Notes under the pieces: model-generated
Databases searched by the model: none
What the model saw: only the letters and a program-made list of their open reading frames with translations
What the model was told of the DNA's origin: nothing
Shown here: positions 4,235 through 7,488 of the stretch, one piece after another
Position numbering within the stretch: position 1 is the stretch's first letter
How the letters are laid out: each line of letters opens with the position of its first letter
Translations under genes and position numbers: made by a program
Virus record (IMG/VR): IMGVR_UViG_3300048125_000013
Coordinates: 1 to 22,643 of that record
Origin: a virus
Length of the DNA: 22,643 nt
Strand: one strand, 5' to 3'

Positions 4235-4972
4235 ATGAAAAGTATGTTAAGAGATGACCCAGATAGAATGGCTATGCTAACAGGTGGTCAAACTAAACTT
4301 GATGCTAATAAAGATGGTGATATTAGTGCTGAAGATTTCAAAATGCTTAGAGAAGAAAATAAAGAAGAAAGAGAAGAAATGCAAGAAGGCGGCATGATGA
4401 TGATGATGGAAGAAATACCACAAGAAATGCCACAAGAAATGCCACAAGAGATGCCACAAGAAATGGATGAGCAAATGAAAAAAATGCTCATGGAAGAAGA
4501 ACAAGTTCCTGATGATGAAATGGAAGAGGACTATTTAGACTTCATAATTAATGAAGCTCTAACACCACAAGAAGAAGATTTTTTAGTAGACCAGTTAAGA
4601 AACAACGATGAACTTAGCGAAATATTTGATAAAGTTATTGAAGTTGCTTCAGAGTTTACAGGCTCAGGTCCAGTAGAAGGACCGGGCACAGAGGTTTCTG
4701 ATTCGATACCTGCAAGGTTATCGGATGGAGAGTTTGTCTTTACTGCAAAAGCTACAGAGCAAATCGGAGTAGATAAATTAATGTCTATGATGAAAGAAGC
4801 TGAAGCTGCTGCAGACGAAAGACAAGGAATGCAGGAAGGGGGAGTACTAAGTGAGACTACGACTACAACTCGTAGATTCTCTGACCCAACTCAAGTTGAG
4901 GATGAGGAAGAAGTCATGCAAGACGAAAAAACCATCCAAGACATGAGAGGTACTAACCCAAGAATGCAATAG
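4235..4972 (+). CDS. Acidic protein with EF-hand-like loop and PQEM repeat
   Basis: 245 residues, very rich in Glu, Asp and Met, preceded by AGAGGA. Residues 23-34 (DANKDGDISAED) match a calcium-binding EF-hand loop: D23, N25, D27, G28, I30 and an acidic residue at position 12. Then come a run of five Met (54-58) and four PQEM repeats (62-77). A conserved-looking segment at about 146-187 (GPGTEVSDSIPARLSDGEFV) is, by recollection, a motif shared by many phage structural or internal proteins. The short motif MQEGG occurs twice (about 49 and 199). Its location between portal and scaffold suggests an accessory head-assembly or internal head protein. Calcium binding is inferred from the loop only, since just one loop is present. 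The function is unknown. Confidence 0.85.
   Translation: MKSMLRDDPDRMAMLTGGQTKLDANKDGDISAEDFKMLREENKEEREEMQEGGMMMMMEEIPQEMPQEMPQEMPQEMDEQMKKMLMEEEQVPDDEMEEDYLDFIINEALTPQEEDFLVDQLRNNDELSEIFDKVIEVASEFTGSGPVEGPGTEVSDSIPARLSDGEFVFTAKATEQIGVDKLMSMMKEAEAAADERQGMQEGGVLSETTTTTRRFSDPTQVEDEEEVMQDEKTIQDMRGTNPRMQ
4394..4408 (+). repeat. Five tandem ATG codons
   Basis: Five in-frame ATG codons in a row encode Met54-58 of the acidic EF-hand-like protein, immediately before the PQEM repeat. Such a triplet run is prone to slippage and could vary between relatives. Confidence 0.95.
4418..4465 (+). repeat. Four tandem copies of a 12-base repeat (PQEM codons)
   Basis: The unit CCACAAGAAATG occurs at 4418-4429, 4430-4441, 4442-4453 (one base different, GAG for GAA) and 4454-4465, encoding PQEM four times. 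The near identity of the copies indicates recent expansion by slippage or unequal exchange. Confidence 0.97.
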
Positions 4973-5102
4973 GAGTAAAGCTACCCGAGTAATCGGCACT
5001 TTACATTAAATCAACTTTGAAAGGCTACCTTTACAAGACAAGCCCTGCAAGTGCACACCGCAGCTACCTTGTTAAACGAAGCCCTGAGTAGGAGGTAAGA
5101 AA
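4973..5102 (+). promoter_or_regulatory. Structured 5' leader of the scaffold/capsid genes
   Basis: A 130-base untranslated gap, by far the longest in this packed region. It contains a hairpin with outer stem GTAAAG (4975-4980) pairing with CTTTAC (4999-5004) and inner stem CCGA (4985-4988) pairing with TCGG (4993-4996), closed by a GTAA loop of the stable GNRA type. A second hairpin AAAGG (5020-5024) / CCTTT (5028-5032) has loop CTA. GCTACC occurs at 4980, 5024 and 5063, and AAGCCCTG twice. The strong ribosome binding site AGGAGG (5090-5095) can pair through GAGGTA (5092-5097) with TACCTT at 5065-5070, or with the copy at 5026-5031. This suggests translational control of scaffold and coat synthesis. 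No open reading frame or classical promoter was seen. The structure was read by eye and not folded. Confidence 0.5.
5024..5086 (+). repeat. Imperfect 24-base direct repeat in the leader
   Basis: The stretches 5024-5047 and 5063-5086 both begin GCTACCTT and end AAGCCCTG, with 18 of 24 positions identical by my count. A shorter third match (GCTACC) begins at 4980. The fixed ends and variable middle suggest that the ends are functional, for example as pairing partners or protein-binding sites. Confidence 0.8.
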
Positions 5103-5981
5103 ATGACTGAAGAAGTCTTAAAAGAAGGACAGCCAAATCCTTATAATTTACAAAAATCTTGGCATACTGGAGAGGATAAACCTTTTCAATCGGCTGAACA
5201 GCTTTACTTTGAAGACCCGTCTGAGAAGAATAAATTATTCAAATCAAGCGATGTTAACGAAGCAGAGCAAGAAGGCAACGTAGAAGTTAATAGTTTGGAT
5301 GCACCTAAGGATGAACCTTATAAAAAACCAGACTATAAGAAACGCTACGATGACTTGAAAAGACATTATGATAGCAAACTCAATGAGTTTAAACAGAGAG
5401 AAGAAGAGTTAATTAAACAGGCAGTGCCTGAATATAGAGCTCCGAAAACTCCAGAAGAACTTGAAGAGTTTAAAAAAAGTTATCCTGATGTTTTTGAAGT
5501 TGTAGAGACAGTTGCTCACATGCAAAGCGAATCTAAGGCAAAAGTTCTAGAAGAACGTCTTAGTAAACTCCAAGAAAGAGAGCAAGAAATATCTCAACAA
5601 GAAGCTGAAAAAAGGTTAAGAGAAAGACATCCTGATTTTGATGATATTAGAAACAGTGATGATTTTCACAAATGGGCAAAAGAACAGCCTTCATCTATCC
5701 AAGGCTGGATATATGATAACGCTGACGATGCCGACCTAGCCAGTAGAGCTATTGATTTATTTAAACGTGATTTGGGAATTGATGTTCCTGAGAAGATAAC
5801 TAAGTCATCTTCTAAGACTAAATCGGCTGCTGATATGGTATCTACAAAAACAACTGCTGTAGAACCTAAATCAGAAAAGATTTGGTCGGAAAAGGAGATT
5901 GCTGCTATGAGCATAGATGAGTTTGATAAATACGAAAGTGAAATCAGCGAAGCTATGCAACAAGGCAGAATCGTTAAATAA
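5103..5981 (+). CDS. Capsid scaffolding protein
   Basis: 292 residues, highly charged and largely helical, immediately before the major capsid gene, with a perfect AGGAGG seven bases from ATG 5103. The N-terminal 70 residues look disordered. Helical, coiled-coil-like stretches lie at about 75-110 (KKRYDDLKRHYDSKLNEF) and 130-180 (KVLEERLSKLQEREQEI). A Ser/Thr/Lys linker follows, and the last 35 residues form a charged helix (IWSEKEIAAMSIDEF) of the kind that binds coat protein in other scaffolds. It would organise coat subunits into the procapsid and leave before or during packaging. No protease domain was seen. The call rests on composition and gene order plus recalled similarity to marine podovirus scaffolds. 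Confidence 0.82.
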   Translation: MTEEVLKEGQPNPYNLQKSWHTGEDKPFQSAEQLYFEDPSEKNKLFKSSDVNEAEQEGNVEVNSLDAPKDEPYKKPDYKKRYDDLKRHYDSKLNEFKQREEELIKQAVPEYRAPKTPEELEEFKKSYPDVFEVVETVAHMQSESKAKVLEERLSKLQEREQEISQQEAEKRLRERHPDFDDIRNSDDFHKWAKEQPSSIQGWIYDNADDADLASRAIDLFKRDLGIDVPEKITKSSSKTKSAADMVSTKTTAVEPKSEKIWSEKEIAAMSIDEFDKYESEISEAMQQGRIVK

Positions 5982-6006: not shown

Positions 6007-6990
6007 ATGGCTCAATTTTTTGAACCAAGTACTGATACTGATGCTAACTTTGCAAACTCCGTAAGTGGACAAACTAATAGTTTTTTCCTACCTAAGATTT
6101 ACTCGAAAAAGGTATTAAACTTTTTCAGAAAAGCCTCGGTAGTTGAAGCTATTACTAACACCGACTATGCCGGTGAGATTTCTGCTTTCGGAGACTCAGT
6201 TAGGATTATTAAAGAACCTGTTATTTCAGTTTCTGATTACACAAGAGGTTCTGACACTACGCAAACAAAGTTAACCGACCAAGAGATATCTTTGGTTGTA
6301 GATAGTGCAAAGGCTTTCAAATTCATCGTAGATGATATTGAAACTAATATGTCACACGTTAACTTCAAAGAAGTTGCTACTTCATCTGCTGCATATGCAT
6401 TGAGAGATTCATATGATGCTGCTGTAATTGCAACTATGTTCTCTGGAGTTTCTACATCTTCACCTGACCACGTTCTAGGTGCTGATGCATCTGCTGCTAC
6501 TCAAACTATGGGTCAGCATCAAGGTGGTTCTAACGCTATCGACCTTACAGGTTCTGATGGTACTGGAACTGACCCATTAGACGTGATGTCATTTATGGCT
6601 AAGCTACTAGATGAGCAAAGCATACCTGAAGAAGGAAGATGGTTCGTTGCACCGCCTTCATTCTACAATGAACTTGCACAATCTGGTTCTAAGCTTTTAA
6701 GCGTAGACTTTAACGCAGGTCAAGGCTCTATAAGAAATGGTCTTGTGTCTAGTGGTAAACTAAGAGGATTTGACATGTACAAATCTAATAATGTTGCTGC
6801 TGCTAGTACAGCTACTGGCAAAATTATGGCTGGTCACATTTCTTCTACTGCAACTGCTCAAACTATCATCTCAACTGAGGTCTTAAGAGACCCTAGTTCT
6901 TTCGGTGATATCGTAAGAGGATTGCATGTATACGGAGCTAAGGTTTTAAGACCTGAAGCTTTAGTATCAGCTTTCTACACAGTAGACTAA
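6007..6990 (+). CDS. Major capsid protein
   Basis: 327 residues, preceded by AAAGGAG (5993-5999). It builds the icosahedral shell. The sequence has the style of T7/marine-podovirus coat proteins: an N-terminal part with FLPKIYSKKVLNFF, the segment AFGDSVRIIKEPVISVSDYT near residues 60-80, KLTDQEISLVVDSAKAFKF after it, and a C-terminal GDIVRGLHVYGAKVLRPEA. An HK97-like fold is expected for this class. A Gly/Ser/Asp-rich insertion at about 155-190 is a likely surface loop. It follows the scaffold gene by 25 bases and is closed by a strong terminator, as expected for the most abundant virion protein. Confidence 0.93.
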   Translation: MAQFFEPSTDTDANFANSVSGQTNSFFLPKIYSKKVLNFFRKASVVEAITNTDYAGEISAFGDSVRIIKEPVISVSDYTRGSDTTQTKLTDQEISLVVDSAKAFKFIVDDIETNMSHVNFKEVATSSAAYALRDSYDAAVIATMFSGVSTSSPDHVLGADASAATQTMGQHQGGSNAIDLTGSDGTGTDPLDVMSFMAKLLDEQSIPEEGRWFVAPPSFYNELAQSGSKLLSVDFNAGQGSIRNGLVSSGKLRGFDMYKSNNVAAASTATGKIMAGHISSTATAQTIISTEVLRDPSSFGDIVRGLHVYGAKVLRPEALVSAFYTVD

Positions 6991-6997
6991 TAAAACT

Positions 6998-7026
6998 GGG
7001 GGAGTCTTCGGACTCCTCCTTTTTTT
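6998..7026 (+). terminator. Rho-independent terminator after the major capsid gene
   Basis: A nine-base-pair stem, GGGGGAGTC (6998-7006) against GACTCCTCC (7011-7019) with one G-T pair, is closed by a TTCG loop between C and G, the extra-stable tetraloop type. It is followed by seven T (7020-7026). It begins eight bases after the coat stop codon. It should end or reduce transcription downstream of the capsid gene and may stabilise its message. Because the next gene follows at once with no visible promoter, partial read-through is likely. Confidence 0.95.
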
Positions 7027-7037
7027 AAGGAGAGATT

Positions 7038-7193
7038 ATGAAACACAACGAACAAAACTTACAAGGTAATCCAAAGCCTAGTGGTAACATTTCTTATTAC
7101 GATTCTATTCATTCAAAAGAAGAGATGTGTAAAGAAATGGTAGGTTACAACACTATGAAATTCAAATACGAAGAAAACAAAGGAGAAAAATAA
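7038..7193 (+). CDS. Small hydrophilic protein of unknown function
   Basis: 51 residues starting MKHNEQNLQGNPKPSGN and ending KFKYEENKGEK, with AAGGAGAG (7027-7034) at good distance before ATG 7038. It lies right after the capsid terminator, and its stop overlaps the next start (TAATG at 7191-7195). No membrane segment or recognised motif. It is the first of three very small consecutive genes between coat and neck genes. The good ribosome binding site and the coupled layout argue that it is translated. Confidence 0.7.
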   Translation: MKHNEQNLQGNPKPSGNISYYDSIHSKEEMCKEMVGYNTMKFKYEENKGEK

Positions 7194-7339
7194 TGGCTGG
7201 ACACAAACCAATGGAAAAGAAAAGAAAAAAAATGATGTACGGTAGAACACCTATGAAAAAAGGTAAGATGATGAGATATGGATTGAATGACGGTGGACCT
7301 GCTGTAATGGCATCAATGGAAAATCAAAAACCTAACTAA
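7193..7339 (+). CDS. Small Lys/Met-rich basic protein
   Basis: 48 residues, strongly basic and Met-rich in its first 28 positions (KKRKKMMYGRTPMKKGKMM), then a short Gly/Pro stretch. ATG 7193 overlaps the stop of the previous gene by one base, so translation is probably coupled. The composition suggests DNA or RNA binding or a packaged internal peptide, but this is inference. Similar Lys/Met/Gly-rich mini-proteins occur, by recollection, near capsid genes of marine phages. Confidence 0.65.
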   Translation: MAGHKPMEKKRKKMMYGRTPMKKGKMMRYGLNDGGPAVMASMENQKPN

Positions 7340-7341
7340 AC

Positions 7342-7488
7342 ATGAAAGTAGATGCACCAAAAGGTTATCATTGGATGAAGTCTGGTAAAAGCTACAAACT
7401 AATGAAAGACCCTAAAGGCGGTTACAAAGCTCACAAAGGAGCTAGTAAAAAAGCTTCTTTTGAGATTCAAAAAATACATAGTAAATAA
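7342..7488 (+). CDS. Small basic protein, GYHWMK type
   Basis: 48 residues with MKVDAPKGYHWMKSGKSYKL followed by a Lys/Gly/His-rich half. The pattern 'APKGYHWMK...YKLMK...GYKAHKGAS' looks like a compact conserved small protein, and I recall related sequences in marine podoviruses without an assigned role. It starts two bases after the previous stop, and its stop overlaps the connector gene start (TAATG at 7486-7490). A decoration, DNA-binding or head-completion role is possible but not shown. Confidence 0.7.
   Translation: MKVDAPKGYHWMKSGKSYKLMKDPKGGYKAHKGASKKASFEIQKIHSK

Follow-up and report, generated by a model that had tools for sequence, protein, structure and literature searches.

Tailed phages must balance the supply of scaffold protein against that of coat protein. 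In phage P22 the scaffolding protein (gene 8) is said, from the work of King and Casjens, to regulate its own synthesis post-transcriptionally, with free scaffold feeding back on a gene that lies immediately before the capsid gene. Regulation by a protein that binds a structured RNA has precedents: the coat protein of MS2 and R17 binds a hairpin at the ribosome binding site of the replicase gene and represses its translation, and ribosomal-protein genes have autogenous leaders, structured parts of the mRNA to which the gene product itself binds. Structured cis-acting RNAs have also been described in marine cyanophages, in which the manA and wcaG RNA motifs accompany metabolic genes (PMC2864571). 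A literature search found no RNA target for scaffold feedback of the P22 kind, and no paper on the RNA described here.

The locus that we analyzed lies in a 22.6-kb virus record (the window, by which we mean the whole stretch of DNA) that carries a terminase, a portal, an acidic gene, a probable scaffold, the capsid protein and tail genes; from its sequence, the phage is of the HMO-2011/pelagiphage HTVC115P type. As in P22, the scaffold gene immediately precedes the capsid gene, and we propose feedback by free scaffold here as well, so that P22 scaffold autoregulation would, by analogy, be the nearest functional parallel. Unlike P22, which has 13 nt between genes 1 and 8 and no comparable leader, the window has a scaffold of a different family (phrog_13678) and a leader RNA. 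Our proposal resembles MS2 and R17 in placing an assembly protein on a small hairpin at a ribosome binding site, but in those phages the start codon lies within the hairpin and it is a different gene that the regulator controls, whereas here the element is a repeated 4x2 internal loop, in one to three copies, in a dsDNA phage. The own-leader logic is that of the ribosomal-protein genes, but none of their Rfam families matches the window leader. The manA and wcaG motifs are, like this leader, structured RNAs in marine phage DNA; unlike it they are linked to metabolic genes, and they give no Rfam match to it.

Organization of the scaffold leader

A 130-nt gap (4973-5102) separates the acidic gene, with its stop codon at 4970-4972, from the probable scaffold gene, with its ATG at 5103. 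All reading frames through the gap are interrupted, which rules out a coding reading and agrees with its description as untranslated in a first-pass annotation of the sequence. The product of 5103-5981 is probably the scaffold, as judged from gene order ahead of the capsid gene and a mostly helical structure prediction; a PDB fold search and Foldseek found no relatives of this protein. The capsid gene begins 25 nt past the scaffold stop. On the other side of the leader, the acidic gene (4235-4972) is highly variable among relatives, and its only matches are to short segments of tape-measure profiles. The stretch 6991-7487, 3' of the capsid gene, contains three small in-line ORFs (51, 48 and 48 aa) positioned like the small genes annotated past the capsid gene of HTVC103P.

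The gap contains three copies of a module, M, which consists of a 4x2 internal loop flanked by two short helices, with strand A (5'-G[CYAC]Y-3') opposite strand B (5'-R[CM]C-3'; core letters in square brackets). One copy lies in a hairpin, P0, and the others in a nested pair of helices, P1 and P2, that ends beside the Shine-Dalgarno (SD) sequence. The features are:

4975-5004, + strand: P0 hairpin with module M1, GUAAAG[CUAC]CCGA-GUAA-UCGG[CA]CUUUAC
5023-5032, + strand: P1 5' strand and strand A of module M2, GG[CUAC]CUUU; pairs with 5078-5085
5038-5048, + strand: P2 5' strand and strand B of module M3, ACAAG[CC]CUGC
5049-5059, + strand: P2 apical loop AAGUGCACACC, which holds the self-complementary GUGCAC (see the loop census below)
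5060-5072, + strand: P2 3' strand and strand A of module M3, GCAG[CUAC]CUUGU
5078-5085, + strand: P1 3' strand and strand B of module M2, GAAG[CC]CU; P1 encloses P2
5090-5095, + strand: SD AGGAGG of the scaffold gene, a few nt 3' of P1
5103-5981, + strand: probable scaffold protein, phrog_13678, for which PHROGs lists no function
Residues 79-88 of the 5103-5981 product, + strand: scaffold basic motif KKRYDDLKRH, in which K86 is the position of the K/R-to-Q change
6007-6990, + strand: major capsid protein, phrog_267, Phage_capsid_4

The strings on which the first-pass annotation was built are all present in the window: the hairpin GTAAAG..CTTTAC at 4975-5004, GCTACC at 4980, 5024 and 5063, a 24-nt repeat (5024-5047 and 5063-5086, 75% identical), TACCTT at 5026-5031 and 5065-5070, GAGGTA at 5092-5097, and AGGAGG. 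The repeat and the three GCTACC copies are strands of M modules.

Compensatory changes among homologous leaders

Folded as a single sequence, as the first-pass annotation had suggested, the window leader gave no signal: its minimum free energy was -29 kcal/mol compared to -30.3 for shuffled sequences (z = 0.35), showing no excess stability, and the structural case consequently depends on comparison. Capsid-protein searches of IMG/VR and phage records provided more than a hundred related loci. In a plain MAFFT alignment of 52 leaders made without structure input, the two strongest covarying pairs fell in P0 (E about 0.02) and further P0 pairs ranked high; the third-ranked pair joined columns around the P2 loop that differ by clade and may reflect misalignment. 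In motif-anchored alignments, for which the anchoring script picks among candidate cores by pairing, every significant pair lay inside the proposed helices (8 of 8 at E<0.05 with 69 distinct rows, 6 of 6 with 90 rows), and the majority of significant pairs were in P0. Significance was assessed against a tree-aware null written for this analysis, a simplified version of that used by R-scape.

Across about 90 distinct leaders, almost all pairs of the named helices were 90-100% canonical, many of them with three or four pair types. Several automatic parses of leaders chose wrong alternative helices, and those were checked by eye. P0 is kept in most pelagiphage leaders, with outer pairs 95-100% and inner pairs 90-100% canonical and several pair types. 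In P2 the inner helix (P2x) is 97-100% canonical, and its pairs covary at E<=0.04. No pair within P1 reaches significance, but the four inner pairs and the first two outer ones are 92-100% canonical (90 leaders), and the P1 sequence differs greatly by clade (UAAGG/CCUUA, ACGG/CCGU, UUUAG/CUAAA and CCUUUAG/CUAAGG), with extra pair types in clades L073, L092, L161 and L162. The outer helix of P1 is weak in the window clade. On this comparative evidence, the leader at 4973-5102 is a conserved, structured RNA with helices backed by compensatory changes across homologues, and significant covariation among homologous leaders, for which the first-pass annotation had proposed a check, lies in the P0 and P2 helices.

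Comparison with Rfam, also proposed at first pass, gave no family that matches the leader. With the Rfam 15 covariance models there was no match at the gathering threshold in the whole window; at a relaxed threshold the best leader match had E=4, far below threshold, and five related loci gave none. We file the M leader, which is absent from Rfam, as a new RNA family.

The same leaders bear on the model of the first-pass annotation, in which the TACCTT segments compete for GAGGTA at the ribosome binding site through mutually exclusive pairings. Such complementarity is present in the window and its closest relatives, but GAGGTA occurs near the start in only 12 of 197 leaders and both TACCTT copies sit in strands conserved for P1 and P2 pairing, and we regard a switch of this kind as extremely improbable. 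The two hairpins of that model fared differently. The stem at 4975-5004 covaries strongly, but conservation does not extend to the GTAA loop that caps it. The other hairpin (5020-5032, AAAGG-CUA-CCUUU) is a clade-specific string found in 40 of 197 leaders, and elsewhere the same bases take part in other, conserved pairing. What the homologous leaders conserve is not a choice between exclusive hairpins but the repeated internal-loop module.

Module architecture and position relative to the SD

Both the number of M copies (one to three per leader) and their connectivity (serial or nested) vary. Most pelagiphages have three modules, CRP-3 and CRP-212 a nested pair, HTVC103P two serial hairpins, and CRP-235, CRP-2 and HTVC033P one hairpin. 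This variability suggests that the ligand is a protein that reads single modules. The single aptamer fold and fixed connectivity of a riboswitch were not seen in these leaders, with their one to three copies in serial or nested arrangement.

Across the clades compared, the SD-proximal M abuts or includes the SD, within a few nt, which puts RNA structure at the ribosome binding site of the candidate regulated gene, as in an autogenous operator. In several clades P1 pairs at its base with the SD directly (CCUUUAG/CUAAGG; CCUUU/AAAGG). In other clades, including that of the window, the SD is unpaired and lies just 3' of P1, so that any block there would be steric. Direct pairing of the SD by P1, considered as a general mechanism, was rejected because it is real in some clades only. 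The earlier idea of a regulatory leader is upheld in outline, since a conserved cis-acting RNA abuts the scaffold SD, but conserved complementarity to the ribosome binding site is not general. The position of M also bears on an alternative to a translational operator, namely that the leader serves RNA processing, stability or antitermination in the late transcript. An RNA structure can govern the stability of individual mRNA segments or act on RNA polymerase, and P0 lies away from the SD; the SD-proximal M nevertheless always abuts or includes the SD, and none is found elsewhere in the window, which makes this second possibility very unlikely.

A census of P2 apical loops in the window clade showed mostly a self-complementary hexamer (GUGCAC, GUCGAC or UGUACA), with a likeness to retroviral kissing loops. 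Judging from these hexamers, dimer formation through the palindromic P2 loop may be possible in the window clade; an HIV-DIS-like kissing dimer as a general feature was rejected, being possible only within that clade. In most other pelagiphage clades (L073, L092-L136 and L161-L276), P2 is capped by a hairpin, P3, with a stem that varies widely (AAGAA/UUCUU, GUCU/AGAC, GUUU/AAAC) and a loop that is constantly GACG. The constant loop is perhaps a second contact.

Association of the module with capsid-assembly genes

To a strict scan, M occurs in the window solely in the scaffold leader, with no further copies. The same holds for HTVC103P, and HMO-2011 gave the leader match and one weaker, chance-like match on the other strand. 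A blind scan of IMG/VR with the DNA pattern AGGCTACCTTG-N-CAAGCCC led to 118 viral loci that were examined, in the great majority of which the same capsid gene follows at a distance of 0.9-1.0 kb; of the exceptions without that capsid gene, most show no M or end too early. A pattern scan of a genome collection (hosts) returned 88 matches over unrelated organisms, which we took as chance and set aside; one host-genome match, L333, has two weak helices.

M lies beside the scaffold start in pelagiphages, HTVC033P, HTVC115P, HMO-2011, roseophages, and Rhizobium and Sinorhizobium phages. Variant forms are present in the Vibrio phage CHOED (UUAG[AUAC]CGUAC..GUACG[AC]CUAA) and the Aeromonas phages MQM1 and 1233 (UAG[ACAC]CGUACA..UGUACG[CC]CUA). 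Among held-out leaders fetched after the motif had been defined (L378-L539), 49 of 80 had M beside the start compared to a mean of 1.6 in shuffles (maximum 4), a count that is low because the loop rule rejected palindromic inner helices. Roseophages and Rhizobium phages have a scaffold-capsid gap of 150-400 nt in which M-like helices are also present; such helices were found in 30 of 92 distinct scaffold-capsid gaps compared to 4.0 in shuffles. In gamma phages, CHOED and MQM1 among them, the scaffold-capsid gap is short and has no such sites. In HMO-2011 and roseophages (for example L085, L370 and L087), a sigma-70-like element, TTGACA...TATAACT, is found between the scaffold and capsid genes and precedes a long leader, which in several roseophages and Rhizobium phages holds M-like helices.

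This distribution can be set against recognition of M by a host factor, whether a ribosomal protein, another RNA-binding regulator or a small molecule, which would make the RNA a leader of the ribosomal-protein kind or a riboswitch. Cis leaders under host factors or metabolites are common, and repeated simple modules can act cooperatively. Against this, M was found only near capsid-assembly genes, its varying connectivity is ill-suited to an aptamer, and its core differs between close relatives in one roseophage lineage yet is constant across alphaproteobacterial phages with different hosts. We therefore consider recognition by a host factor or metabolite improbable.

A scaffold residue changes with the module core

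The scaffold family was found in 27 phage records, which are exactly the M-bearing phage group. The N-terminal half of the protein is variable except for the motif KRYxDL(K/R)RH, whose K80, R81 and D84 do not vary across 40 diverse members, and AlphaFold places this motif at the start of a confidently predicted helix (78-107) that follows a disordered tail. CRP-738 and its relatives combine the motif KRYQDIQRH with the module core AUAC/AC; in CHOED, MQM1 and 1233 the motif is KRYxDLQSH and the cores are AUAC/AC or ACAC/CC. K or R was accompanied by a C-type core in 289 of 289 loci and Q by an A-type core in 17 of 17, a tally that includes many near-identical loci and for which the cores of isolates were read by eye. 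On the capsid-protein tree, K/R-to-Q in the scaffold and C-to-A in the core each change twice, in the same two lineages. In gamma-phage relatives of Q or H type (Slicky01, which is L366, and L464-L467), M is variant or unrecognisable. In the Pseudoalteromonas phage Slicky01, the upstream stop codon is spanned by a hairpin, AUAG[UAC]UUCAU-GGUA-AUGAA[A]CUAU, that may be a shortened 3x1 version of M.

We scanned 221 usable scaffold columns and 313 capsid columns for convergence with the state of the core, and this scaffold residue, in a motif that had been spotted by eye ahead of the scan, was the sole convergent column. As a control, 214 other distant clade pairs averaged 0.09 convergent scaffold columns, and 4 of the 214 also have a convergent column at a conserved position. 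The link between residue and core comprises two independent switches, and a sign test on two events cannot reach significance. In two lineages, then, the core of M and a single position in the protein encoded after it have changed together.

The sites in the scaffold-capsid gap follow the same pairing of residue and core. When any core letter was allowed, R-type phages had C/C in 21 of their 24 strong gap helices, and roseophages of the CRP-738 (Q) clade have gap cores of A type (GGUAGGG[AC]ACUC..GGGU[ACAC]CCCUACC and UAGAG[AC]ACC..GGU[AUAC]CUCUA). Several sites of one lineage have thus switched along with the scaffold residue, as expected for a changed trans-acting reader.

Such a reader might instead be a different product of the phage, for instance the capsid protein or a late regulator, with the scaffold residue having changed for some other reason. 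The capsid protein is an equally conserved partner that is encoded next, and the gap copies of M in roseophages and Rhizobium phages would also suit this explanation. However, convergent change was detected in none of the 313 capsid columns compared to one scaffold column, and on this evidence we think a different phage protein unlikely. The first-pass annotation had named the scaffold or coat protein, or another factor, as the control input; of these, sequence convergence makes the scaffold the best-supported candidate.

Proposed autogenous control by the scaffold protein

The best explanation for these observations, to which we assign a probability of about 0.65, is autogenous translational repression by the scaffold protein through binding to M. 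The leader at 4973-5102 would then be a translational operator, with the M modules as putative binding sites for the scaffold protein of the next gene. As free scaffold accumulates, its basic motif KKRYDDLKRH would grip M, and M-bound scaffold would stabilise P1 and P2 beside or around the SD and so block ribosome entry. Scaffold synthesis would fall as a result, such that unassembled scaffold limits its own production, and the capsid gene 25 nt downstream may follow the level of scaffold by coupling. Uptake of scaffold into procapsids would free the operator again. These steps, from direct binding through repression and feedback to any coupling with the capsid gene, are what we infer here; feedback of this kind would keep capsid parts in the right amounts.

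A broader form of this proposal, for which we judge the odds to be even, is that the scaffold reads M as a mobile internal-loop module by means of its conserved basic helix, with one to three copies ahead of the scaffold gene, joined in roseophages and Rhizobium phages by others in the scaffold-capsid gap, tying the synthesis of capsid parts to assembly. Specificity would have been rewired at least twice, through K/R-to-Q in the protein together with C-to-A in the core, and at several sites at once in one roseophage clade.

This leader provides both a defined RNA and a defined candidate binding motif, as well as a compensatory test that is ready to apply (K/R with C, Q with A), and M could serve as a new orthogonal RNA-protein pair for laboratory use. 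HMO-2011-type phages and their relatives have been described as dominant and widely distributed in the sea (PMC9038755), and this element may consequently rank among the commoner cis-regulatory RNAs of marine viruses. If our proposal is true, M and the scaffold would constitute a new RNA-protein recognition module in a globally abundant group of phages.
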